Shown: positions 40,847 through 58,165 of the stretch, one piece after another
How positions within the stretch are numbered: position 1 is the stretch's first letter
Layout of the letters: each line of letters starts with the position of its first letter
Assembly: GCA_019637295.1 (NCBI GenBank)
Contig: JAHBVX010000002.1
Coordinates: 992,001 to 1,056,000 of the forward strand
DNA from: Polyangiaceae bacterium
GTDB taxonomy: Bacteria; Myxococcota_A; Polyangia; Polyangiales; Polyangiaceae
Reading direction: 5' to 3'
Length of the DNA stretch: 64,000 nt
Made by a program: the position numbers and the translations under genes
The notes under the pieces: generated by a model
The model's database searches: none
Told to the model about the DNA's origin: nothing
The model's input: the letters and a program-made list of their open reading frames with translations, nothing else

Positions 40847-40897
40847 GCCGCCACCCACGGGGGTCATGTCCAGCGCCCCCGTGGGTGAATTGGCGGC
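40847..40897. promoter_or_regulatory. Large inverted repeat upstream of the kinase-cytochrome operon
   Basis: GCCGCC-ACCCACGGGGG (40847-40863) pairs with CCCCCGTGGGT (40876-40886), five unpaired bases, and GGCGGC (40892-40897), with a 12-nt centre TCATGTCCAGCG. The inner 12 bp are perfect. It ends 20 bp before a TAGGCT -10 box, covering the -35 region, so an operator for a dimeric regulator is the simplest reading; a hairpin in a divergent transcript is an alternative. Confidence 0.6.
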
Positions 40898-40973: not shown

Positions 40974-42155
40974 ATGGAGCGCATCGGGGAGTACCTCGTC
41001 CGACGACTGGTGGGGGAGGGGGGCATGGGCAAGGTCTACGAGGCCGAGGAGCGGCTCTCCAAGCGACGCGTCGCCCTCAAGGTCCTGCGGCCCGAGCTCG
41101 CCCGCTCGGAGGAGGGTCGGCGCCTGTTCCTCAACGAGATGACCATCCTGGCCCACCTCGATCATCCGAACATCGTGCGCTGCCTGGCCTGCACCGAGAG
41201 CGACGATCAGCTCGTGATGGCGCTCGAGTTGCTCGAGGGTCGCACCCTGCGGGAGGTGCTCACCGAGCACGGCGCGCTCGCGTGGGAGGACGCCGTCGGC
41301 ATCGCCGTTCAGATCACGGGCGCCCTCGCCGCCGCGCACCGCCAGCAGCCGCCGATCGTGCACCGGGATCTGAAGCCGGAGAACGTGATGGTGCTCGCGG
41401 ACGGCACCGTGAAGGTGATGGACTTTGGCATCGCCAAGGTGATGCAAGCGCTCAGCAAGACGACCACCCACAGCGTGGGCACGCTGCAGTACATGAGCCC
41501 GGAGCAGATCGACGCTACCGGCGTCGACGGTCGGAGCGATCTGTACGCCCTCGGCCTGGTGCTGTACGAGATGCTCACCGGCAAGGCCCCGTTCGAGAGC
41601 GCGTCGCCGCGCGAGCTGCTGAATCTGCAGTGCACCGCGCCGGCGCCGCCGCTGCCCGACTCGGTGCGGGGCTCGCTGCCGCGCGGCGTGGACCGGCTCC
41701 TGTTCGAGCTGCTCGAGAAGAAGCCCGATGACAGACCGCAGACGGCTGCGGACGTGCTGCACGATCTCGAGCCGTTCGCGCCCGCCGTCGCGCGGTCGCC
41801 GCGGGCTGCGGGCGGCGAGCGCAGCAGCCAGGAGGTCTCGGCGCGGTCCGCCGCTCCCCGCACTCAGCCCCTGGAGTCCCGGGACACGCTCGAGAGCGCA
41901 GCCAGCGATCCGGGCGAACGCCCGCAGGGCTCGACCGCCGAGCGACCGTCGCCGCGGGCCGACACCATCGCCCTCGTGGAGCGGGCCACCGCCGCCCGTG
42001 AGATCGAGACCCGCGTAGGCCTCGCGGTGGTGCTCGGACTCAGCCTCTTGGCCGCGGTCGTGACGTACTTCGCCCGAGCCAGCAGCACTCCCGCCACCCC
42101 CGCTCTCGAGGCGCCCACGGCCAGCGCAGCGCGGGGCGCGGTGACCGTTCCGTGA
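40974..42155 (+). CDS. Transmembrane Ser/Thr protein kinase
   Basis: The 393-residue protein has a full Hanks-type kinase domain at residues 7-270: GEGGMGKVYEAE glycine loop, catalytic lysine K36 (VALKVL), HRDLKPEN at 130-137, DFGIAKV from D150, and MSPEQIDATG. A Ser/Ala/Pro/Arg linker of about 75 residues leads to a single membrane helix at about 346-366 and a short periplasmic tail. With no real sensor domain of its own, it probably works with partners. The TGA overlaps the GTG of the pseudokinase-cytochrome gene (GTGA). It is the first gene of the four-gene redox operon; its likely substrates are the products of that operon. Confidence 0.93.
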   Translation: MERIGEYLVRRLVGEGGMGKVYEAEERLSKRRVALKVLRPELARSEEGRRLFLNEMTILAHLDHPNIVRCLACTESDDQLVMALELLEGRTLREVLTEHGALAWEDAVGIAVQITGALAAAHRQQPPIVHRDLKPENVMVLADGTVKVMDFGIAKVMQALSKTTTHSVGTLQYMSPEQIDATGVDGRSDLYALGLVLYEMLTGKAPFESASPRELLNLQCTAPAPPLPDSVRGSLPRGVDRLLFELLEKKPDDRPQTAADVLHDLEPFAPAVARSPRAAGGERSSQEVSARSAAPRTQPLESRDTLESAASDPGERPQGSTAERPSPRADTIALVERATAAREIETRVGLAVVLGLSLLAAVVTYFARASSTPATPALEAPTASAARGAVTVP

Positions 42156-45142
42156 AGACCCCCGAGCAGGCCGGGCTCGAGCTCCTGTCACCGCTGCCGC
42201 CCCTCGGGCGCGCGGTGACGCGCCACGCGCTCGGCTCGGGCGGCGAGCTGTGGCGAGTCGACGACGCGGAGTTGGCCAGCAAGCTCGAGCGCTTCGGTCG
42301 CCTGGGCCTCGGACGCTTTGGGCCGTCGGGGCACGACGACCAGGGCGCGTGGCTGGTGCGAGGCTCGGCCGAGCCCACCCTCTCGACGTGGCTCTCGTCG
42401 CGCGAGCGCGTCACCGCGAGCGAGGCAGCGCCGCTGCTGCTCGCCCTGGCGCAGTGCCTGGAGCGCGTGGAGGCCGAGTCGATGTTTCCGGGCCCCCTCG
42501 GCCCCGACACGGTCACGGTGCGCGGCCCCGCGCTGGTCGAGCTCGGCTGCGACCCGCTGGTCTTCACGCTCGTGGGCGCCGGCGCCGAGGCGAGCCGAGC
42601 CACCGACGCGTCCGCCGGCTCGCCGCGCTGGACGCCGCCGGAGCAAGCCGAAGGAGCCCCTTGGAACAACGCGGCCAATCGCTACGTGCTGGGACTCATC
42701 GCCTACCGCATGCTCGCCGGCGAGCACCCCTTCGCCGGTCGTGGGCTGCGGCTGGCCCTCGAGGCGCGCGCCGCTCGCCCACCGCCACCCTTCCCGCCCG
42801 AGGTGGCGCGCGCGCTGCCCGCGGGGCTGCAGGCGCTGTGTTTGCGGCTCCTGGACCCAACGCCCGCGGAGCGACCCAGCAGCGCCGCGGAGATCGTGGC
42901 TCGGCTCCGCTCACTCGACGCCGTCGGCGCGCAGCCCGCCGCAGGGCAGCGCTCCGACCCGCGCCCCGCCCCTGCTGCTCGGACCGAGGCGAAACCGCGA
43001 GCCACCGGAGCCGCAGCCTCCCCGCCGCCGAGGCGCGCGCTGCCTGCGGGCGCGCTTGGGCTACTGCTCGCCGGCGCGCTCGGCGCTCTCTTCTATGTCC
43101 TGCTCACCCGCGGGGAGGGGTCGCCGGCCGAGCCGCTCGCGCCTCGCGCACCGTTGCTCGCCGCGACGGCCCGCGCGGACGACTGCGCGAGCTGTCACCC
43201 TCGACAGGTCGGCGAGTGGAAGCGCTCGGTGATGGCGCACTCGGTCAAGAGTCCGCTCTTCCTCGCGCTCGAGATGCTGATCCAGGAGCAAGTGGGGCGC
43301 GACTTCGACTGCCCCAACGGCGCGGGGATCCTGCGCAAGCTCGATCCGCAGACGGCCTGTCGAGATCGCGCCAGCCGCGTGCCGGTGACGGGGTCGGGTG
43401 GAGAGCACTGGTGCGTCAACTGTCACGCCCCCGCGGAGAACCTCGCCCCTACGGTGCCCGCCTGGGACGGCCGTCGCGCCGGCGCGCCCAATCCGACCCT
43501 GGAGCAAGCCCTCGACGCCCGCGCCATGGAGGGCATCTCGTGCGTGTTCTGTCACCAGGTGCACGGCCCCGTCACGCCCGGCGCGCTTGCGCGTGGCGAC
43601 TACGAGGGCAATCCGTCGTGGATCAGCAGCGTGACGGGTCGTCGCTTCCTGGCGCGTCCAGAGGACGCGCGTGGTGTCCACGGCATCGCCAACAGCGGCT
43701 ATCGACTCGATCCGAACCTGCTGTTTGGGGGCAGCGCGGAAATGGTCGGGGGCGGGGTGCACTCCAGGCCCAGCGCCGAGGCCAAGCGCTACCTGGGGTC
43801 GAGCGAGTTCTGTGGGGCTTGTCACGACGTGCGCCTGTTCGGCAGCGACGTGATCGGAGTGCGCGAGCGCGGCGAGCACTTCAAGCGACTGCGCAACGCC
43901 TACAGCGAGTGGCACGCGTGGGCCGAAGCGGAGCGCCGCTCGGGGCGCACTGCCGCGAGCTGTCAGGACTGTCACATGAGCAACTACCCCGGCGTGTGCG
44001 TGCGGCTCGAGCCCGGCAGTCCGGCGCCGGTAGGGGGTAACGCGAGCGCCCTCGATCGCGCCTGCCCGCCGGGGACGCGCTTCGAAGCGCGCGCGCCCGG
44101 CGACTACCCGCTCGCGCGCGTCGCCACCAGCTCGGGCTCGGCCACGCCCGTGCGCCCGCACTACTTCTCGGGCGTGGACGTGCCGCTCTCCGCCCACTTT
44201 CCCGACGAGCTCGTGGACGAGCCCACGGTGGACACCTTCGGTATCCCGCAAGGCGGCAAGAGCCGACGCGATCTATTGCTGGCCGCCAGCGTGTCCCTCT
44301 CCCTGGGCGAGGCGCGCCGGCGGGGACGGCAGCTCGAGCTGCCGGTGGTGATCGAGAACGTGGGCGCCGGGCACCGCATCCCGGCGGGCTTCTCCCAGGA
44401 ACGCGAGCTGTGGGTGCACCTGGTGGTGCGCGACGCGGGCGGGCGGGTCGTGTACGAGGTGGGACGCGTCGACCGCGGCGACGAGGATCTGCGAGACAAG
44501 GTCTTCTTGCGGGTCAACACCGACGATCGCTTCACCGACGGGCAGGGCAGACCCCAGGGCGTGTTCGGCGCCGACGTGAGCGACGGTCCCGACGTCCCGC
44601 GTTGGGATCCGGATCCCGCGCTGGGCGGCCGCCACTTCCAGGGCAGGGGGCTGGTGAACTTCCAGAACGGCTTCCTGCGCTGCGTGGTGTGCATCGGCAG
44701 CGTCGACTCCCGCGGGCGATGCCAGCCTCTACCGGGCCAAGATCGAACCCGGGCGGATCGCTACGCGGACGGCAGCTACGACATCGACACCGGCGAGTGC
44801 GTCAGCAACCTGCGCGGAGAGAATGCGCTGTTCGAGACCTACTTCCCCGTGGGCGCGCTGGACGCTTCGCGTGGCGTGCTCAAGGCGCCGGATGCCATCA
44901 TCGATCGGCGCTCCCTCGCGCCCAAGCAGCCGGTCACCTTCGTGTATCAGCTGTCGGTGGGCACGGGCAGTGAGCTGACGGTCGAGGCCCGGCTGCTCTT
45001 TCGGGCCTTTCCGCCCTTCTTGCTCCGGGCGTTCATCGACTACGAGCGGCGCAAGCGTCCCGGCAGGCCCCTCATCGACGCAGCAGCGCTCGAGCGGCTC
45101 GAGGTGGTCGAGCTGTCGCGCCTGACTCGGACGATTCCATGA
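42152..45142 (+). CDS. Pseudokinase-transmembrane-pentaheme cytochrome c fusion
   Basis: The 996-residue protein joins two unrelated halves. Residues 1-265 follow a kinase C-lobe layout (GSPRWTPPEQAEG, YVLGLIAYRMLAGEHPFAGRG, LLDPTPAERPSSAAEIVARL), but the catalytic loop reads GPLGPDTVTV instead of HRDLKPxNxxV and no DFG or lysine is found, so it is a pseudokinase. A membrane helix at about 295-318 follows. The periplasmic part has five CxxCH heme c motifs at about residues 345, 421, 464, 554 and 604 and a degenerate sixth, CVVCI, at 844. A beta-rich region with VIENVGAGHRIPAG, common in multiheme cytochromes, lies between. GTG start overlaps the upstream kinase; the stop overlaps the next gene. 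Confidence 0.9.
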   Translation: MKTPEQAGLELLSPLPPLGRAVTRHALGSGGELWRVDDAELASKLERFGRLGLGRFGPSGHDDQGAWLVRGSAEPTLSTWLSSRERVTASEAAPLLLALAQCLERVEAESMFPGPLGPDTVTVRGPALVELGCDPLVFTLVGAGAEASRATDASAGSPRWTPPEQAEGAPWNNAANRYVLGLIAYRMLAGEHPFAGRGLRLALEARAARPPPPFPPEVARALPAGLQALCLRLLDPTPAERPSSAAEIVARLRSLDAVGAQPAAGQRSDPRPAPAARTEAKPRATGAAASPPPRRALPAGALGLLLAGALGALFYVLLTRGEGSPAEPLAPRAPLLAATARADDCASCHPRQVGEWKRSVMAHSVKSPLFLALEMLIQEQVGRDFDCPNGAGILRKLDPQTACRDRASRVPVTGSGGEHWCVNCHAPAENLAPTVPAWDGRRAGAPNPTLEQALDARAMEGISCVFCHQVHGPVTPGALARGDYEGNPSWISSVTGRRFLARPEDARGVHGIANSGYRLDPNLLFGGSAEMVGGGVHSRPSAEAKRYLGSSEFCGACHDVRLFGSDVIGVRERGEHFKRLRNAYSEWHAWAEAERRSGRTAASCQDCHMSNYPGVCVRLEPGSPAPVGGNASALDRACPPGTRFEARAPGDYPLARVATSSGSATPVRPHYFSGVDVPLSAHFPDELVDEPTVDTFGIPQGGKSRRDLLLAASVSLSLGEARRRGRQLELPVVIENVGAGHRIPAGFSQERELWVHLVVRDAGGRVVYEVGRVDRGDEDLRDKVFLRVNTDDRFTDGQGRPQGVFGADVSDGPDVPRWDPDPALGGRHFQGRGLVNFQNGFLRCVVCIGSVDSRGRCQPLPGQDRTRADRYADGSYDIDTGECVSNLRGENALFETYFPVGALDASRGVLKAPDAIIDRRSLAPKQPVTFVYQLSVGTGSELTVEARLLFRAFPPFLLRAFIDYERRKRPGRPLIDAAALERLEVVELSRLTRTIP

Positions 45143-47454
45143 CCGAGCCGGCTGGGATCCCGGACGAGGTCTTCGCCTCGCCGCTGCTGCGCAGTCTGGA
45201 CGAACGCGCCCGACGGGACGTGGCGCGGGCGAGCCGGGTGCTCGAGCTCGGCGCCGGCGAGCCTGCCTACGGCGTCGGGGACCGCGCGGACACGCTGTTC
45301 GTCGTGCTGCGCGGGAGCGTGCGGCTCGAAGCGGTGCGACGCGGCGAGGACCGCGCGAGCACGATGCGCGTCGCGCGTCGCGGTGACAGCTTCGGCGAGG
45401 AGGCCACCGTGCCGGGGGCCAGCCGCCTGCTCAGCGCGTGGGCCGACGAGCCAGCGACGATCGCAGAGGTCCCCGTCACGGTGCTGCAGCGGGCGCGGGT
45501 GCGCGGTGGGGCGACGGCGGACTCCGTCGAGCGCGACGAGCGCGCGGCGCTGCGCGCCGCGGCGCGCGACGTGCTGGACAGCTCGGCGCTGGGCCGAGAG
45601 CTGGGCCGCGACGAGCTGGACATGCTGCTCGACCGCGCCGAGTGGAAGCACCACCGTCGCGGCGAGCGGGTCTTCAGCCAGGGTGATGACGCACCGTTCG
45701 CGCTGGTCATCGCCGGCGGCTTGCTGCAGCTGCAGTCCGAGCACGACGGGCGCGTGCGGGTGTGCGGCTATCTGGCGCGCGGCGACGTCGCGGGGGACGA
45801 CGACGTGCTCGCGGGTCGAAAGCACAGCCTGTCCGCGGTGGCGCAGGGAGATCTGTTCGCGCTCGCGCTGCCACGTGCGGCGCTGCAGAGCGCGGTGGAT
45901 CGCTGTCCGGCGTTGCTGGCTGGACTCGGACGCGTGGCTGTGGAGCGAGGCGAGGCGCAGGCGGGTATCGTCGGCGAGTTCGAACGCGGCGCGACGCAGC
46001 ACGTGTTCCGGGATCTGTATCGCCTGCAGGTCGCGCGCTCGCTGCTCGTGATCGAGCAGGACAGCTGCGTGCGCTGCGGACATTGCGCTTGGGCGTGCGC
46101 CGAGACCCACGGTGAGAGCCACCTGGTGCGCCGCGGTGACAAGATCGTGACTCAGCTCTCCAGCACCGGCGCGCCGGCGAGCTTGCTCTTGCCCAACAGC
46201 TGTCAGCACTGCGAGAGCGCCGCCTGCATGGTGGACTGCCCCACCGGAGCCATCGGTCGCGAGCCCCGCGGAGAGGTGTTCATCCGCGCCGAACTGTGCA
46301 CCGGGTGCGCGGCCTGCGTCCGCGCCTGCCCGTGGGACAACGTGCAAATGGTGCCGCGGCCCGGTGCGCCGCCGGCTGCGGCGCGGGCCGAGACGGCGGT
46401 GGGCACGAGCGCGCTCGTCGCGGCCAAGTGCGATCTGTGTCGCGACTGGCAGGCGCCGGCGTGTGTCTCGGCCTGCCCTACCGGGTCCATCCTGCGGGTG
46501 GATCCGAGCCGCGACTTCTCGGAGCTCGCGGCGCTCTTTCACGGCCCCGGGCCGACCGCCGGCGGCGGCGCCCCGGGGCGCACGGAGAAGCGGCGAGCGC
46601 GGGCGCTCACCCTCGCGTCGGGGCTGGGCTTGGTCTTGGTGGGGCTAGGCCTCGGCCTGCAGCAGGCTGGCGTGGTGGAGCCCAGCCGGGGCGTGGGTCT
46701 GCTCGCTGGCGTGGTCGCGCTGCCGGCGTGTCTCGTGCTCGCGGGCTATGGGTTCTTCAAGCGAGGGGTGCGACGTTGGCTTCCGCGCCGCGAGCGCGGT
46801 CTGCGCGCGACCCTCGCAGAGCGCGCACCCGCGCCGCGCTCTCGGGTGGCGCCTCAGCTCGACGTGCACGTCGTGCTCGGCCTGGCCACCCTCGCCCTCG
46901 GCGCGCTGCACGGCGGCTTCGGCGGACGCCCCTCCACGAGCGGCGCCCTGGGGCTCGTGTTCTGGGCGCTGTCCCTCACCGGTCTCGTCGGCATCGCGGC
47001 GTATCGCACGCTGCCGCGCTGGCTGACGCGGATCGAGCGCCGCGGTCTGCTGCCCGAGGACTTTCCGCGGGAGCGAGAGCGTGTGTTCGATCGTCTCTAT
47101 CGGGCGGCCTCGGGCAAGAGCGAGCTGGTCAAGGTGCTCGCGGAGCGCTTGCTGCTGCCCTACGCGCGCTCGCCGCTGGGCTGGCTCGGGCTCGTGCTCG
47201 GGCGCCGCACCCTGCGTGAGGAGGAGGCGCGCTTGCACGCGCGCATCGACGCCATGCTGGAGGGCCGCGGCGGCGATCAGCGAGAGGGGCTCACGGATCT
47301 GGTGCGCATCGTGGTGGAGCTGCGCGCGCTCCCGGGGCGTCGCGTGCTGACCCTCGCGCTGCGCGGCCTGGTGCCCGTGCACGTGCTGCTCGCCGGGATG
47401 TTCCTGCTGCTACTGCTACTGCACGTCGCCTCCGCGCTGGGAGGCGGGCGGTGA
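45139..47454 (+). CDS. Dual cNMP-binding-like, four-cluster ferredoxin and b-type membrane protein
   Basis: The 771-residue protein has two Crp-like cyclic-nucleotide-binding domains (about residues 10-125 and 140-265, e.g. VVLRGSVRLEAVRRGE and QGDDAPFALVIAGG). A DmsB/NrfC-like ferredoxin region follows, with four cysteine quartets at about residues 310-320, 355-367, 387-397 and 431-446. About five membrane helices come after residue 490. H577/H591 and H748/H762 lie on two helices with H-x13-H spacing, the pattern of bis-heme-b ferric reductase-like domains. It would move electrons from cytoplasmic Fe-S clusters across the membrane. Whether the cNMP domains bind nucleotide is unproven. ATGA and GTGA overlaps flank it. 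Confidence 0.88.
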   Translation: MTEPAGIPDEVFASPLLRSLDERARRDVARASRVLELGAGEPAYGVGDRADTLFVVLRGSVRLEAVRRGEDRASTMRVARRGDSFGEEATVPGASRLLSAWADEPATIAEVPVTVLQRARVRGGATADSVERDERAALRAAARDVLDSSALGRELGRDELDMLLDRAEWKHHRRGERVFSQGDDAPFALVIAGGLLQLQSEHDGRVRVCGYLARGDVAGDDDVLAGRKHSLSAVAQGDLFALALPRAALQSAVDRCPALLAGLGRVAVERGEAQAGIVGEFERGATQHVFRDLYRLQVARSLLVIEQDSCVRCGHCAWACAETHGESHLVRRGDKIVTQLSSTGAPASLLLPNSCQHCESAACMVDCPTGAIGREPRGEVFIRAELCTGCAACVRACPWDNVQMVPRPGAPPAAARAETAVGTSALVAAKCDLCRDWQAPACVSACPTGSILRVDPSRDFSELAALFHGPGPTAGGGAPGRTEKRRARALTLASGLGLVLVGLGLGLQQAGVVEPSRGVGLLAGVVALPACLVLAGYGFFKRGVRRWLPRRERGLRATLAERAPAPRSRVAPQLDVHVVLGLATLALGALHGGFGGRPSTSGALGLVFWALSLTGLVGIAAYRTLPRWLTRIERRGLLPEDFPRERERVFDRLYRAASGKSELVKVLAERLLLPYARSPLGWLGLVLGRRTLREEEARLHARIDAMLEGRGGDQREGLTDLVRIVVELRALPGRRVLTLALRGLVPVHVLLAGMFLLLLLLHVASALGGGR

Positions 47455-49433
47455 AGCTCCGCGCCGCGCCGCGGACGTCGAGCGACGTGCTGCTGGGTCG
47501 CGGGCTGTGGCTCGGCGCCGCCGTCGCGGCCGTCGCGGCCGTCGCGGGGCTCGGCTGGGCGCTCGGTCCCCAGGGCCTGTGGGGACCCGGCCCCCAGTCG
47601 CGTCCCCACGCGCGCGCCGCGGTCGGTTGCAGTGGCTGCCACCAGAGCGGCGCGTCGATCGCGGACAGCTGCGTGAGCTGTCATGGCCCGCATCCCTCCG
47701 CGCGCCCCGCTCATCGCGCGCTCGCGCAGCGAGGCCAGCTCGGCTGCGCGACCTGCCACGCGGCGCACACTGCAGATGAAGGTGTGGCGCTGCTCACCGA
47801 CGGACGCGCGATTCGGTACGGCACCGGCTGGGAGACTGACACCGGTGTGGTGACGCGCTACGTGGCGCCGACCGCGGTCAACGTCCCGCTCGTGCCTCTC
47901 GCGGCCTGTACGCGCTGCCACGATCCGAGTCGCCCGGGAGATCCCATCGCGGCCTGCCTGCTCGCCGGGCAAGAGGGGCTCGGCGACGCTCGGCCGACCG
48001 TGTGCTTCGACGAGCACCGGCCGGTGGCCACCACGCGCGGCGATCGTCCGGCACGCGATGGTGCCTGGGAGGCGGCCCGCGAGGTGGCGGCGACGGTGCC
48101 CGCTGGTGGCCGGGGTCGCACGGCGCCGTGGCTGGTCGGTGCGTTCGGCCTCGGGCTCGTCGTCTGGGGCTCGCAGCGAGCGCTGTGGCGGCTGCGCGAG
48201 CGCCGCCGGGCGCCGGCCCCCGAGCCCGTGGTGCGCCCGTCCGACGTAGTGCGCTTGCCGCAGATCGACACCACCACGTGCTTGGGCTGTTACGCCTGCG
48301 TGGACGCTTGCCCCTACGACGTGCTCGAGGTGCGCCGATTCGTCGCGGTCGTCGCGCGACCGGACGACTGTTGCGGACTGACGCTGTGCGAGCAGCACTG
48401 TCCCAACGGCTCGCTGGTGGTTCGGGAAGGTGAGCCGGTGGACGATCGCCCGCGGGTGACCGACACGCTCGAGTCGGTGGACGTGCCGGGGCTGTACCTG
48501 GCCGGCGATCTCACCGGACTGCCGCTGATCAAGAACGCCATCAATCAAGGGGCGATGGCCGTGCGCGCGCTGGCCAAGACCCTACCCAAGAAGCCGGACG
48601 GCTCGTCCCGGCTGCAGTTGCTCATCGTGGGCGCCGGCCCCGCCGGCATCAGCGCCGCCCTCGCGGCGCGCGAGCAGGGGCTCGCCGCGATGGTGCTCGA
48701 GCAGTCCACCGTGGCCGCGAGCATCCGCTCGTTCCCGCGGGGCAAGCTGGTGTTCGATCAGCCCCTCGGGGTGCCGGTGGTCGGGGAGCTGTGGCTGGAG
48801 GAGGCGACCAAGGAGGAGCTGCTCGCCAAGTGGCTGCGCATCGTCCGGCGCCACGAGCTGCGGATCCGAGAGGGCCTGCGGGTCACGGCCATCGAGCGCG
48901 GGTCCGGCGGCGAGTTCCGCATCACCGCGCTCGACCCAGAGGGCAACGAGCAGCGCTTCGAGGCGGAGCGAGTGGTGCTCGCCAGCGGCAGGCGCGGCAG
49001 CCCACGGCGCCTCGAGGTCCCGGTGGATCCCGACGCGGAGGCGCAGGTCTACTACTCGCTCGCGGACGCGCGCAGCTTCGCCGGTCAGCGGGTGCTCGTC
49101 GTGGGTCTGGGCGACAGCGCGATGGAGGCCGCCCTCGCCCTCGGACGTCAACCCGACACCCGCGTCACGATCGTCCATCGCGGAGATGGCTTTCGGCGCG
49201 GCAAGGCGCGCAACATCAGCGAGCTGTCGCGCGCGGTGGAGGCTGGCCGCATCGAGCTGCGCCAGAACTCCGTGGTGCGGCGTGTTCGACGCGGGCTGGT
49301 CGAGGTCGAGCGCAACGGAGCCCTGGACGAGCTCGCGTGCGACGCCGTCTTGGTGCAGATCGGCGCGCTGCCGCCCTGGTCGTTCCTCGAGCGCGCCGGC
49401 GTTCGGCGCCCCACGCCGCGCTCGTCCGAGTGA
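47451..49433 (+). CDS. Tetraheme cytochrome c-ferredoxin-FAD/NAD(P) oxidoreductase fusion
   Basis: The 660-residue protein starts with a membrane helix (about 17-37), followed by four CxxCH heme motifs at about residues 60, 74, 99 and 153, a second helix (about 225-245), a ferredoxin-like segment (CLGCYACVDACP at 277-288 plus CCGLTLCEQHCPNG from 307), and a pyridine-nucleotide oxidoreductase: FAD motif IVGAGPAGISAALAAREQG near 393 and NAD(P) motif VVGLGDSAMEAALALG near 548. No active-site CxxC as in thioredoxin reductase is seen, so electrons presumably pass to the Fe-S clusters. Predicted topology puts the hemes in the periplasm and the flavin in the cytoplasm. Start is GTG, overlapping the preceding gene. 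Confidence 0.9.
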   Translation: MKLRAAPRTSSDVLLGRGLWLGAAVAAVAAVAGLGWALGPQGLWGPGPQSRPHARAAVGCSGCHQSGASIADSCVSCHGPHPSARPAHRALAQRGQLGCATCHAAHTADEGVALLTDGRAIRYGTGWETDTGVVTRYVAPTAVNVPLVPLAACTRCHDPSRPGDPIAACLLAGQEGLGDARPTVCFDEHRPVATTRGDRPARDGAWEAAREVAATVPAGGRGRTAPWLVGAFGLGLVVWGSQRALWRLRERRRAPAPEPVVRPSDVVRLPQIDTTTCLGCYACVDACPYDVLEVRRFVAVVARPDDCCGLTLCEQHCPNGSLVVREGEPVDDRPRVTDTLESVDVPGLYLAGDLTGLPLIKNAINQGAMAVRALAKTLPKKPDGSSRLQLLIVGAGPAGISAALAAREQGLAAMVLEQSTVAASIRSFPRGKLVFDQPLGVPVVGELWLEEATKEELLAKWLRIVRRHELRIREGLRVTAIERGSGGEFRITALDPEGNEQRFEAERVVLASGRRGSPRRLEVPVDPDAEAQVYYSLADARSFAGQRVLVVGLGDSAMEAALALGRQPDTRVTIVHRGDGFRRGKARNISELSRAVEAGRIELRQNSVVRRVRRGLVEVERNGALDELACDAVLVQIGALPPWSFLERAGVRRPTPRSSE

Positions 49434-53890: not shown

Positions 53891-54019
53891 GCGGCGCCCT
53901 GCCGCTGGCTTTGAGGGCTCGACCCGAGTCCGCTTTCGTCCGACGATGAGCCTCCGGCCCGAGGCCGGCTCGAGGTGGTTCGGCGCGGCGCGTACGCGGT
54001 CCGGGCCCAGGAGACCTTC

Positions 54020-57000
54020 ATGAGCGAGAAGCCCCAGCAGTCCCCCAAGGCCAAGACGATTCAACGCGTGGTGCTGGCGCTGCTCGCGCTGGCGGTCATC
54101 GGCTCGGTGATCGCCTACGTGGTCACCCGCAGGCCACCCCCCGTGCGGGCCGGCGCCATCCAGGCGCGGCTCGAGCTCGCGGCCGGGGAGGTCACCGTCG
54201 ATCAAGGGGAGGGAGCCGTGCGCGCTGCGAGCGGGGCGCCGCTGAAGAGTGGCGCGCGCATCGAGACGGGTAAAGGTGCGCGGGCGCTGGTGCGTCTCCC
54301 GGACGGCTCGCGGCTGTTCCTACGCGACGACAGCGTGGCGGTTCTGGGCGCCGAGAGCGTGGTGCTCGAGAAGGGGGAGTACTTCGTCGACGCACCACCG
54401 ACGGATCGCGAGGCCTTGGCCCACACGGCCGGAGAGATCGTGGTCGCGGCGGCCGATGCGGGCTTGTCGGTGCGGCGCGATGGCGAAGGAGCCGTCGTGT
54501 ACGTCGCTCGCGGCGCCGCGACGGTGACGTCCAAGGGTGGCCGCGTGGAGGTGAAGGCCGGCGAGCAGGCGCTCGCCCGCGGCGCGGACAAGCCCGAGGT
54601 CGCGCCGCTCTCGTTCTGGGACGATTGGACGGGTGGCATGGCCGACTACTCGTCCGGCGCGCTGCTGGCGGGCGCTGGTCGCGGCACCATCTACGGCGTG
54701 GACGTGGGGGCTCAGGCCGGCAGCCCGGCGCGACGGTTGGAGGTGAGCAAGCAGAGCGTGCGCGCGGTGGTACGCGAGGGGCTGAGCGAGACCGAGGTCG
54801 ATCAGACCTTCTTCAACCCGACGGATCGAGCGGTGGAGGGTTGGTACTGGTTCACCTTGCCCGAGCGGGCGAGCGTGACCGGCTTCGCCCTCGAGACGGA
54901 CGGACAGTTGGTGGAGGGTGAGCTCACCGAGCGTCGCGAAGCCGCCGCCAAGTACGCCACGGCGGTGGCCACGGGTCACTCGCCCGCGATCCTGGAGTGG
55001 ATCGACAACCGCACCTACCGCGCGCGGATCTACCCCATCACTTCGGGCGGAACGCGACGCGTGGTGCTGCGCTACCTCGAGCTGACGACGCCGGTGGACG
55101 GCAAGCTGACGTACGTGTATCCGATGTCGGCCGGCGATCCGGTGCGCATCGGCGAGTTTTCGCTGTCCGTGTCGCTGGGCGAACCGGGGCAGAAGATGCG
55201 CCTGGCCACCCTCGCGGACGCGCGGGTGGAGGACGGCGGCAAGCGCGTCACGATGCGTCGCTCGGGCTACACGCCGCGCACGGACTTCCAGCTGGAGGCC
55301 ACGCTGCCCGGGTCGCGACCGCCGCTCACGGTCTCTCGCTACGCCGCCGGGGGAGAGAGCGCGGACTACCTAATGGTGCGCTACGTGCCGGACATCGACT
55401 GGAAGAGCGTGAAGCAGCAGCGCGCGGACGTGGTGGTCGTGGTGGACACGTCCGCCGCCGGTGACGAGGCAGGTCACAAGCTGAAGAGCGCCACGGCGCA
55501 GGCCATCCTGCGGGGGCTGTCGAGCGATGATCGCTTCGCGCTCGTGGCTCTGGACGTGCGCCCCAAGGTGCTGCACCCGAAGGACGGCCTGGCGGCGGCG
55601 TCGGACAAGGAGATCGAGCAGGCCCTCGAGGCGCTCGCCGATCACTCCGTCGGTGGCGCGACGGATCTGGAGGCGTCCTTCGACGTCGCGCTCGCGCGCC
55701 TGCACGGCGCCGAGCAACCCGCGCTCGTGTACGTGGGGGACGGTCTGGCCACCAGCGGCGTGATGACCGGCGAGCAGCTGATCGAGCGACTGCGCCGGGC
55801 CCTGGGCACCTCTCGGGCGCGGCTGTTCAGCGTGGGGGTCGGCACGGACGCCGCGCACGCCCTGCTCGGTGAGCTGGCGCGCGCTGGCGGCGGCATCCCG
55901 CTGCGTGTGGACGAGGCCGAGCAGACCACAGCCCGCGCGCTGGAGCTCGCCGCCGCCATCAAGACGCCCACGCTCACGGATCTCGAGCTCGATCTCGGCG
56001 CCGGGCTCGACGAGCCCTTCAGCACGGCTGCCGGCAAGGTCAGCCGCGGCAGCGAGGTGGTCGTGCTCGCCCGCACCCACCACGATCTGCCGCGCAAGGT
56101 CACGGTGCGCGGGCGGCTCGGCGGCGAGAAGTTCGAGAAGGAGTACGACGTCAAGCGCGACGACTCGGTGGTCGGCGCCTTCGTGCCCCGGCTGTGGGCT
56201 GCCGAGTACGTCCGTCGCTTGCTCGGCGCCGCCCCCGATCCGGAGCAGGAGCGCGGCCGGATCGTGGCCCTCGGGCTCGAGTACGGGCTGATGACCCCGT
56301 TCACCTCGTTCATCGCGCTGGAGAGCGAGTCGGCGTATCAGCGCATGGGCATCCCGCGCCGGCGCTCGCCGCTGCGCGGCGTGAAGCTCGGAGCGCTCGA
56401 CCCCACGAGCGAGCGACGGCTGACGGCTCGTCTGGCCGCGATGCCCGCGGCGTCCTTGCCCCTCGGCTGCAGCAAGCTCGATCGCTTGGCGGCCAGCGAG
56501 AGCGAACCGGCGAGCGCACCGCAAGCGGCCGGCGCCAAGGAGTACGCGCCGAGCCCCATCGCGCAGCAGGCCGAGGCGCTCGAGGAGAAGGGCGACCTCC
56601 CGCAGGAGCCGACCCCGGCGCCATCCCTCATCCCCGAGCCAGAGTCCGTGGCCCCGCCGTCGAACCCCTTCACGCCCCAGGCCGCGGCACCGACGGCCCC
56701 TGCCTACGCGGCCCGCCCGTCGATCGCGGGCGGCGGCGCCGCCCCGCGACGGGCGCCGAAGCTCCGCATGCCCGACCCGCTCGACGAGGAATCCGAGCGG
56801 GACGCCGATCTGCCCCGCAAGCGAGGGCTGGTCTCTCCCCCGCCGCACGCGTTGCGCGGCAGCCCGGTCGAGGTCGTGCTCAAGACCTGCAGCGACACCT
56901 CCTCGCGGCCCCTCGCTCAGCGCAGCTTGCTGTGGCAGAAGCGGCTGCGCACCGCGACCAACGCCAGCGAGCTGATCGAGCGCTACGACACGGCGCGCGC

Positions 57001-58165
57001 GGCGTGTGAGCTCGGGGACTGGCGCGCCGAGCGCACCTTCCTGGAGCTGATGCAGCGTCGCATCGACAATGGGGGCACCGCGACGGTGGTGCTCGGGCAC
57101 TTCACGTCGCGTCCGGACGTGCAGAAGCACCTCGCCAAGCTCGTGCTGCGCCGCGCGGTCGATCCCCAGCTCGTGTCCGCCGTCGAGCGCGCCGTGTTCG
57201 GCAGCGCCGTCAACTGGGTGCAGGTCGATGCCCAGCTGTCGGAGCTCGGCGATCTCGACAAGCGCATCACGAAGCTACGCGAGGAGATGGCCAAGGCGCC
57301 GGACGATCCCAACGGCGGCATCCGACTCGTCAAGCTCTTGACCCGCGCGGATCGCAAGGACGAAGCCGTCTCGCTCGGACGCCGGCTGCGCGACCAGGGC
57401 CTGCTCACGCCCACCATCGCGCGGCAGCTCGGTGACGTGCTCGCGCGCGCCGGCCACGGGGACGAAGCGGTGCGCACCTACTCGGAGATCGTCGAGTTCG
57501 ATCCCGAGAGCGTCCCCTCGCGCCGCCTGCTCGGCGACATCTACCTGGGTCACGGCTGGTACGAGCCTGCGTATCGCCAGTACAAGACGATCACCGAGCT
57601 CGACGGCAGCGACGCGCTCGGTTGGCTTCGGCTCGCCGCGGCCGCGGCCGGAACTGGCCGCATCGACGAGGCGCTCCGGCTCGAGCGCAAGGTCGCCGGC
57701 GCGCAGGGCACGCCGGGGCCGAACGATCCCAGGCGTTGGGCGCGGCTGGCCAGCGCGGCTCGCCTCGCGCGCCTGCTCTCAGAGCCTGCCGCCGGCGGCA
57801 AGACCCCGATGCCCACGGCCAGCGTCAAGCGCGAGCTGAAGGAGCTCGGACTGTTCAGCGGGCCCGGCAAGCTCGTGATCGTGACCTGGGAGGAGCTGTC
57901 GACCCAGCTCGAACTGGCGGCGCTGCTCGACGGCTCCGAGCAGAAGCTGGGGGAAGTGACGGACGCTTCGCCCATTGGGTTGTCGGCGATGCTGCTCACC
58001 TTGGCGGACGGGGAGCGCGTCAAGCTCTCGCTACGCTTGCTCAGCGAGCCGCTCGACAACGCGCTCGGGGCGCGGCGTCACGAGATCGTGTGGGACGGAA
58101 AGGACTTCCGGGTCACGGTGTCGCGCGTCGAGCTCGAGCCCCTCGGCAAGACGGTCTCGCTCTGA
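54020..58165 (+). CDS. FecR-VIT-VWA-TPR membrane-anchored protein
   Basis: This 1381-residue protein has a membrane helix near residues 15-35, a FecR-like domain (about 45-185: AGEVTVDQGEGAVRAASG, GARALVRLPDGSRLFLRDDS), a VIT domain (about 245-390: TEVDQTFFNPTDRAVEGWYWF), a VWA domain (about 470-650) and an unfolded Pro/Ala linker (about 800-930). The last 450 residues are TPR-like (PTIARQLGDVLARAGHGDEAVRTYSEI). The MIDAS motif reads DTSAAG rather than DxSxS, so metal binding may be lost in this copy. GGAG lies about 8 nt before the ATG at 54020, one of the few clear Shine-Dalgarno sequences. It follows a related VWA gene. Confidence 0.86.
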   Translation: MSEKPQQSPKAKTIQRVVLALLALAVIGSVIAYVVTRRPPPVRAGAIQARLELAAGEVTVDQGEGAVRAASGAPLKSGARIETGKGARALVRLPDGSRLFLRDDSVAVLGAESVVLEKGEYFVDAPPTDREALAHTAGEIVVAAADAGLSVRRDGEGAVVYVARGAATVTSKGGRVEVKAGEQALARGADKPEVAPLSFWDDWTGGMADYSSGALLAGAGRGTIYGVDVGAQAGSPARRLEVSKQSVRAVVREGLSETEVDQTFFNPTDRAVEGWYWFTLPERASVTGFALETDGQLVEGELTERREAAAKYATAVATGHSPAILEWIDNRTYRARIYPITSGGTRRVVLRYLELTTPVDGKLTYVYPMSAGDPVRIGEFSLSVSLGEPGQKMRLATLADARVEDGGKRVTMRRSGYTPRTDFQLEATLPGSRPPLTVSRYAAGGESADYLMVRYVPDIDWKSVKQQRADVVVVVDTSAAGDEAGHKLKSATAQAILRGLSSDDRFALVALDVRPKVLHPKDGLAAASDKEIEQALEALADHSVGGATDLEASFDVALARLHGAEQPALVYVGDGLATSGVMTGEQLIERLRRALGTSRARLFSVGVGTDAAHALLGELARAGGGIPLRVDEAEQTTARALELAAAIKTPTLTDLELDLGAGLDEPFSTAAGKVSRGSEVVVLARTHHDLPRKVTVRGRLGGEKFEKEYDVKRDDSVVGAFVPRLWAAEYVRRLLGAAPDPEQERGRIVALGLEYGLMTPFTSFIALESESAYQRMGIPRRRSPLRGVKLGALDPTSERRLTARLAAMPAASLPLGCSKLDRLAASESEPASAPQAAGAKEYAPSPIAQQAEALEEKGDLPQEPTPAPSLIPEPESVAPPSNPFTPQAAAPTAPAYAARPSIAGGGAAPRRAPKLRMPDPLDEESERDADLPRKRGLVSPPPHALRGSPVEVVLKTCSDTSSRPLAQRSLLWQKRLRTATNASELIERYDTARAACELGDWRAERTFLELMQRRIDNGGTATVVLGHFTSRPDVQKHLAKLVLRRAVDPQLVSAVERAVFGSAVNWVQVDAQLSELGDLDKRITKLREEMAKAPDDPNGGIRLVKLLTRADRKDEAVSLGRRLRDQGLLTPTIARQLGDVLARAGHGDEAVRTYSEIVEFDPESVPSRRLLGDIYLGHGWYEPAYRQYKTITELDGSDALGWLRLAAAAAGTGRIDEALRLERKVAGAQGTPGPNDPRRWARLASAARLARLLSEPAAGGKTPMPTASVKRELKELGLFSGPGKLVIVTWEELSTQLELAALLDGSEQKLGEVTDASPIGLSAMLLTLADGERVKLSLRLLSEPLDNALGARRHEIVWDGKDFRVTVSRVELEPLGKTVSL

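Follow-up and report, generated by a model that had tools for sequence, protein, structure and literature searches.

A Conserved Myxobacterial Gene Cluster Combining Ser/Thr Kinase and Pseudokinase Domains with a Predicted Transmembrane Electron-Transfer Chain

Gene layout and co-inheritance

The window analyzed here is a 64,000-bp stretch of a Polyangiaceae bacterium genome (GenBank assembly GCA_019637295.1, contig JAHBVX010000002.1, positions 992,001 to 1,056,000). It contains four consecutive open reading frames (ORFs), designated ORF1 to ORF4, which were read directly on the forward strand and encode a Ser/Thr kinase, a pseudokinase-cytochrome fusion, a ferredoxin-type membrane protein, and a multiheme flavoprotein (Table 1). 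The initial annotation of the window, made from the sequence alone, had described four genes joined by 4-bp overlaps, and such an overlap was read at each of the three junctions (ORF1/ORF2, ORF2/ORF3, and ORF3/ORF4). Overlaps of 4 bases or 1 base recur across many of the orthologous loci, not in all of them. A 4-bp gene overlap is by itself ordinary in bacteria; what goes beyond chance is that the genes have stayed linked and occur together, not the overlaps. An alternative in-frame ATG lies upstream of ORF1 at position 40866, and alignment reveals that the orthologues begin at the Met of MERIGEYL, the start adopted here. A scan for promoters and terminators yielded nothing exceeding chance.

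Table 1. Features of the cluster and its probable fifth member (TM, transmembrane segment; FAD, flavin adenine dinucleotide; cNMP, cyclic nucleoside monophosphate; AF2, AlphaFold2; PHC, pentaheme cytochrome)
Feature	Position in window	Strand	Evidence
ORF1, membrane-anchored Ser/Thr protein kinase, 393 aa	40974..42155	+	Pfam Pkinase E 2.2e-56, alignment, hydropathy
ORF2, predicted pseudokinase (1-260), TM (300-318), and pentaheme cytochrome with Ig-like domain (335-996), 996 aa	42152..45142	+	Alignments, AF2, Foldseek, profile
ORF2 pseudokinase domain, lacking HRDxKxxN, kinase C-lobe features retained	42152..42931	+	Motif counts, profile, VIA
ORF2 predicted PHC-family pentaheme cytochrome and C-terminal Ig-like domain	43154..45139	+	Alignments, profile, motif counts
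ORF3, tandem cNMP-binding-type domains, predicted four-cluster ferredoxin, and five-helix membrane domain, 771 aa	45139..47454	+	Pfam, AF2, Foldseek, PDB sequence search
ORF3 16-Cys ferredoxin domain, predicted four [4Fe-4S], HycB/DmsB type	46045..46506	+	Invariant Cys, HycB3 7qv7 E 2.9e-25
ORF3 membrane domain, H577/H591 on helix 3 and H748/H762 on helix 5	46576..47439	+	Conservation, AF2
ORF4, TM, tetraheme c3-like domain, putative TM, two-cluster ferredoxin, and apparently permuted FAD/NAD(P) flavoprotein, 660 aa	47451..49433	+	Pfam/NCBIfam, alignment, Bdr/YpdA 7a76 E 2.8e-34
ORF4 tetraheme domain	47607..48020	+	Alignment, motif counts
Secreted VWA-domain protein, DxSxS metal site, CISC motif, 495 aa	52403..53890	+	VWA Pfam E 6.9e-16, linkage

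The Pfam matches comprise a kinase in ORF1, a weak kinase and CxxCH motifs in ORF2, two cNMP-binding and 4Fe-4S domains in ORF3, and c3-like heme, 4Fe-4S, and Pyr_redox domains in ORF4. The cofactor motifs listed in the initial annotation were all recovered. Its nine c-type heme motifs (CxxCH) are distributed as five in ORF2 and four in ORF4, and its approximately six Fe-S motifs resolve into six four-Cys sets, four of them in ORF3 (16 Cys) and two in ORF4 (8 Cys). None of the nine CxxCH motifs and none of these 24 Cys varies among 11 aligned orthologues. The FAD/NAD(P) domain of ORF4 and both cNMP-type domains of ORF3, likewise anticipated, match Pfam above the cut-off.

The ORF3 protein, the ORF4 protein, and the ORF2 alignment were each searched against one set of 59 related genomes, and strong matches to all three were found in the identical 14 genomes; in two of these, some matches are partial and lie on short contigs. 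The 14 carriers all fall within the family of the window, represented by 37 of the sampled genomes, and no carrier was detected in other families of the order within the 59-genome sample. Full-length ORF4 likewise stayed within that family when the sampling of the order was widened to 145 genomes. When 84,980 species genomes were scanned with the ORF2 alignment, about 55 orthologous loci were recovered at 46 to 63% identity, all of them myxobacterial wherever the record title names a group. Named carriers include Polyangium, Sorangium, Minicystis, Byssovorax, Labilithrix, Kofleriaceae, Enhygromyxa, Plesiocystis, and Paraliomyxa, and further carriers are metagenome-assembled genomes labeled Polyangia, Deltaproteobacteria, or similar.

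The order ORF1-ORF2-ORF3-ORF4 is kept in most of these loci. Where the flanks are long enough, ORF1 is linked in 38 of 40 cases, ORF3 in 39 of 40, and ORF4 in 36 of 37. The Minicystis ORF3 is on the opposite strand at a distance of about 15 kb, and in another genome ORF1 is found elsewhere at 60% identity, compared with at most 44% for the other kinases of that genome; in both cases the gene is separated, not lost. The four-gene set is thus inherited as a unit. Homologs scattered as unrelated singletons, the outcome that would have spoken against the initial annotation, were not what the searches returned, and the notion of unrelated genes merely lying side by side was rejected on the shared presence of ORF2 to ORF4 in the same 14 genomes and on the retention of the set in rearranged copies.

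Two orthologous loci carry additional genes between ORF3 and ORF4 (L069:5769-10990 and L075:9566-14370), which encode a Cys-rich protein of 1,030 to 1,134 aa and a DUF4215/PPC-domain protein. A VWA-like stretch was seen by eye in the Cys-rich protein, the L069 copy of which has no Pfam match.

Domain composition of the four proteins

ORF1 has a kinase domain at residues 9 to 262 and, by hydropathy, a C-terminal transmembrane segment at residues 348 to 366, leaving about 27 residues outside the membrane. The VAxK, HRDxKxxN, and DFG signature is present in 53 of 53 ORF1 orthologues, which identifies ORF1 as a predicted Hanks-type Ser/Thr kinase. Like PknB-type bacterial receptor kinases, it combines a catalytic domain with a single membrane helix, but it lacks an outer sensor, and its pseudokinase relative, ORF2, bears a cytochrome in place of the sensor. 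Identity with the PASTA receptor kinase PknB/Stk1 was rejected, as the NCBIfam score (293.7 bits) falls below the cut-off of 450 and outer PASTA repeats are absent. Since ORF1 exposes so few residues outside the membrane, any outer sensing would have to come from a partner. An invariant juxtamembrane motif, D330-T331-x-A333-L334 (D-T-x-A-L), lies at window positions 41961 to 41981, and its Thr may be phosphorylated or take part in docking.

The N-terminal domain of ORF2 is the pseudokinase expected from the initial annotation, which had paired it with an active-looking kinase in ORF1: HRDxKxxN, retained throughout the ORF1 orthologues, is missing from 57 of 57 ORF2 orthologues. The AF2 model of ORF2 has a mean pLDDT of 87.6, and its N-terminal part superposes on PknB (1o6y) with a VIA Z score of 21.4 and a root mean square deviation of 6.3 Å across 233 residues; the VIA matches are kinases throughout, and PknB is also among the Foldseek matches. 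A profile built on the pseudokinase scores ORF1 orthologues at 96 to 127 bits and the other full-length kinases at these loci at 24 to 80 bits, and a single match at 84 bits is a truncated ORF1. This ranking suggests that the pseudokinase was derived by duplication of ORF1 and that the two form a duplicated kinase pair. ORF2 shares the layout of ORF1, with one transmembrane segment by hydropathy (residues 300 to 318) and the cytochrome serving as its outer part. Because the pseudokinase is nearest to ORF1 and ORF1 has no outer sensor domain, the pair resembles a receptor kinase divided over two proteins, with the cytochrome outside.

The outer part of ORF2 contains CxxCH motifs at residues 345, 421, 464, 554, and 604, which occur in the same order without exception in the 11 orthologues and in a 20-sequence alignment that includes distant relatives. 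The top Foldseek match of the ORF2 model is Thermochromatium tepidum cytochrome c552 (5ze8; E 4.9e-12, TM score by target of 0.60). The sequence profile searched against solved proteins matches 5ze8 at E 6.9e-12 and every other protein at E 2e-4 or worse, and a second profile segment matching 5ze8 spans the GHxxPxG region. By profile and model alike, the outer domain is a predicted member of the PHC family, described in a 2025 paper as pentaheme cytochromes with an Ig-like domain that comprise T. tepidum c552, Geobacter ExtKL, and the sPHC and lPHC of cable bacteria, with a proposed function in extracellular electron transport for ExtKL (PMC11976967). ORF2 has the five c hemes and Ig-like domain of this family, but the described members are secreted or periplasmic, whereas ORF2 is predicted to be anchored in the inner membrane, with a cytoplasmic pseudokinase in the same polypeptide; it is therefore an atypical PHC protein. 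It also differs in four clade-specific Cys of the Ig-like part (844, 847, 857, and 883; window positions 44681 to 44800): all 40 myxobacterial sequences have them, and none of nine distant ones does. These Cys may form a metal site or disulfides.

The AF2 model of ORF3 (pLDDT 87.3, pTM 0.84) contains five membrane helices, where hydropathy alone had indicated several. In sequence (1ne4, E 1.5e-26) and, by Foldseek, in fold, the N-terminal half of ORF3 resembles the tandem cNMP-binding domains found in regulatory subunits of PKA and PKG. Both domains align end to end with those of PKA/PKG, but the ORF3 pair continues into a ferredoxin and a membrane domain, and its binding site is only partly conserved. 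In the phosphate-binding cassette of the first domain, G, E, and R are found in 42, 40, and 39 of 42 sequences, respectively, and the cassette Arg of the second domain is found in 34 of 42, being His in the window copy. The central part, with its 16 Cys in four sets, has the composition of a HycB/DmsB-type ferredoxin predicted to hold four clusters. The two H-x13-H helices noted in the initial annotation are conserved in 42 of 42 (H577/H591) and 41 of 41 (H748/H762) sequences; in the model each of helix 3 (571-592) and helix 5 (718-767) bears one pair, and the two helices are predicted to bind two b hemes. A two-helix H-x13-H pattern is familiar from NADPH oxidases and ferric reductases, and ORF3 follows it in having the pairs on the third and fifth helices of the domain. 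No C-terminal fused FAD/NADPH domain is present in ORF3, which ends after helix 5, the flavoprotein being in ORF4. The Foldseek list for the ORF3 model is occupied by cNMP-domain matches, so the absence of a membrane-domain family from it is uninformative.

ORF4 begins with a transmembrane segment seen by hydropathy, and a second one (residues ~226 to 245), below the hydropathy cut-off, is inferred from a hydrophobic stretch in the alignment that precedes an Arg-rich segment. Its CxxCH motifs, at residues 60, 74, 99, and 153, are accompanied by four invariant extra His (53, 88, 106, and 189), which would provide enough ligands for four six-coordinate hemes. The flavoprotein domain is nearest to the NAD(P)H-dependent bacillithiol-disulfide reductase Bdr and to thioredoxin reductases. 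A function as thioredoxin or bacillithiol reductase was ruled out, since no C-x2-C occurs in residues 386 to 660 and the redox-active CxxC is thus missing; for the same reason, electrons can leave the flavoprotein to the adjacent Fe-S clusters. The domain (window positions 48486 to 49430) looks circularly permuted, because GLYLAGD, normally C-terminal, comes before GAGPAG.

Proposed electron path and alternatives

We interpret the cluster as encoding one inner-membrane complex that transfers electrons from NAD(P)H to the periplasm and is coupled to Ser/Thr phosphorylation, with a probability of roughly 0.6. The cofactor chain and topology proposed in the initial annotation, with c hemes outside and flavin, Fe-S, and signaling domains inside, are supported by the domain analysis. 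Provided that the heme and cluster sites are occupied and the proteins physically assemble, as we presume, NAD(P)H would reduce FAD in the cytoplasmic part of ORF4, and electrons would then flow, presumably outward, via the two [4Fe-4S] clusters of ORF4 and the four of ORF3, cross the membrane over the two ORF3 b hemes, and arrive in the periplasm at the tetraheme domain of ORF4 and the pentaheme domain of ORF2. At the membrane, ORF1 would probably associate with the pseudokinase half of ORF2, an arrangement in which kinase activity and the redox state of the pentaheme domain could influence each other, and the tandem cNMP-type domains of ORF3 may serve as a second cytoplasmic input. The VWA-domain protein encoded downstream may act on the periplasmic side. 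We infer the electron path from the cofactor sites, and the coupling to phosphorylation, with any gating of the flow, from gene fusion and linkage.

Two kinds of known systems resemble this arrangement in part. The Hmc, Tmc, and Dsr complexes of sulfate reducers likewise have a ferredoxin subunit inside, heme b in the membrane, and multiheme cytochrome c outside, but in the present cluster no NrfD-type subunit was found in the Pfam scan of its proteins, and an NAD(P)H flavoprotein and signaling domains are present. NADPH oxidases, ferric reductases, and STEAP proteins pass electrons from NAD(P)H through FAD and two b hemes stacked between parallel helices to an outside acceptor, and some of them are controlled by phosphorylation; in contrast, the cluster has a separate flavoprotein and ferredoxins, outer c hemes, and kinase domains, and the sequence match is not significant. 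No outer-membrane beta-barrel, as in MtrCAB-like porin-cytochrome conduits, is conserved among the neighbors at the myxobacterial loci, to which this search was confined. The initial annotation knew of no described system with this combination of genes, and apart from the PHC paper (PMC11976967) no earlier description was found among open-access papers, a search that left subscription papers mostly uncovered. The component families are known, and their combination appears undescribed within the searchable papers.

Several observations weigh against an electron-exporting complex. The myxobacterial cluster contains no conserved terminal reductase, and the cNMP ligand pocket of ORF3 is only partly canonical. 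No significant sequence match assigns the ORF3 membrane domain to a heme b family, its best natural PDB match being 5o0t, annotated as a ferric reductase domain, at E 2. In addition, the cultured carriers are mostly strict aerobes, which have no evident need for a further respiratory outlet.

An equally natural reading has information running the other way, with the cytochrome sensing on behalf of a split receptor kinase. That the cluster is a new kind of receptor kinase with a multiheme cytochrome sensor, split between kinase and pseudokinase and connected to the NAD(P)H pool by a dedicated transmembrane electron chain, in which electron flow through the inner membrane is turned directly into Ser/Thr phosphorylation or the reverse, is a tentative proposal to which we give somewhat less than an even chance. 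The stricter version, in which ORF1 and ORF2 sense, ORF3 and ORF4 set the heme redox level from the NAD(P)H pool, and the output is phosphorylation, not bulk export, is unlikely in our judgment. It would account for an ORF1 without an outer domain whose closest relative bears a cytochrome outside, for the missing acceptor gene, and for tandem domains resembling those of PKA regulatory subunits, which suit regulation better than catalysis; however, seventeen predicted Fe-S and heme centers plus FAD are heavy for a pure sensor, and distant PHC relatives lie in clusters resembling electron export.

The ORF2 pentaheme domain could also itself reduce a small periplasmic substrate as the last enzyme of the chain, with ORF3 and ORF4 supplying the electrons. 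Its five hemes are matched by four candidate distal ligands kept in near and distant relatives (M361, H537, H670, and H741, with M361 being His in one distant sequence), so one heme could be open, and the profile has a distant and weak similarity to multiheme reductases. However, H576, which is limited to myxobacteria (36 of 40 sequences, compared with 0 of 9 distant ones), could be a fifth ligand in most orthologues, and the nearest solved relative, T. tepidum c552, is described as a low-potential cytochrome of the electron-transfer type, which makes a periplasmic reductase improbable. Reverse flow, in which periplasmic electrons entering via ORF2 and ORF4 reduce NAD(P)+ or another cytoplasmic acceptor, is very improbable: the chain can in principle run both ways and ferredoxin domains connect to several cytoplasmic pools, but the cluster contains no donor oxidase, and the proton-gradient coupling needed for uphill NAD(P)+ reduction has no visible module.

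Electron export and eukaryote-like kinase signaling are usually studied separately, and here they meet in the same polypeptides, kept in about 55 loci whose cultured carriers include Sorangium, Polyangium, Minicystis, Plesiocystis, and Enhygromyxa. If the coupling proposed for the NAD(P)H-to-periplasm complex is real, the cluster would offer a direct test of how bacteria sense or control transmembrane electron flow through phosphorylation, and it may provide a role for some of the many kinases in large myxobacterial genomes.

Neighboring genes and distant relatives

A gene for a secreted VWA-domain protein, not included in the initial account of the cluster, directly follows ORF4 in most family members. 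Three genes separate the two in the window; they encode an esterase, a zinc-protease-like protein, and a RimK-like ATP-grasp protein. Of the 14 carrier genomes, 13 have the VWA gene at most 8 kb from ORF4, the contig of the fourteenth ending early, and at three Nannocystales loci it remains beside ORF1 although ORF1 is on the opposite strand. Strict membership in the cluster is weakened by close VWA relatives in four genomes without ORF2, and for this reason the protein is regarded as a probable, not a proven, fifth member. Right after the VWA gene (window positions 53975 to 58165), a 1,396-aa protein with FecR, VIT, VWA, and TPR matches is encoded, and it also occurs at two other loci.

Distant relatives of the pentaheme domain, at 25 to 38% identity, were found in bins of Phycisphaerae, Omnitrophota, Binatia, Acidobacteria, Chloroflexi, and Pseudomonadales. 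Their neighbors include 10- to 15-heme cytochromes, barrel-like proteins, and flavin/Fe-S proteins bearing FHA domains or cyclic nucleotide-binding domains (cNBDs); in three neighborhoods the barrel-like proteins were recognized by eye from a signal sequence and a terminal aromatic residue. FHA domains bind phosphothreonine, and on that account a tie between phosphorylation and this type of electron chain seems to recur, as judged from incidental sightings.

A Pseudomonadales bin (L160:500-11583) encodes an FAD-cNBD-cNBD-Fe-S protein, an FHA-TM-10-heme protein, a pentaheme cytochrome, and a barrel-like protein, together with a 4-heme c554 and a separate two-FHA protein, and is possibly a parallel signaling-linked electron export system. 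In a Myxococcota bin (L157:209-11289), a 1,410-aa protein with four FHA domains, seven CxxCH motifs, Fe-S, and FAD is accompanied by a 15-heme cytochrome, a barrel-like protein, and a 1,205-aa six-heme PHC relative. Among relatives of the window, FAD-FHAx3 and cNBDx2-Fe-S proteins adjoin five-heme C554-type proteins (L172:4240-6888 and L174:94-3778). Elsewhere in the order, five loci from other families encode cytochromes with 11 to 30 hemes and, near them, a shorter Fe-S/FAD relative of ORF4 that has no c hemes.

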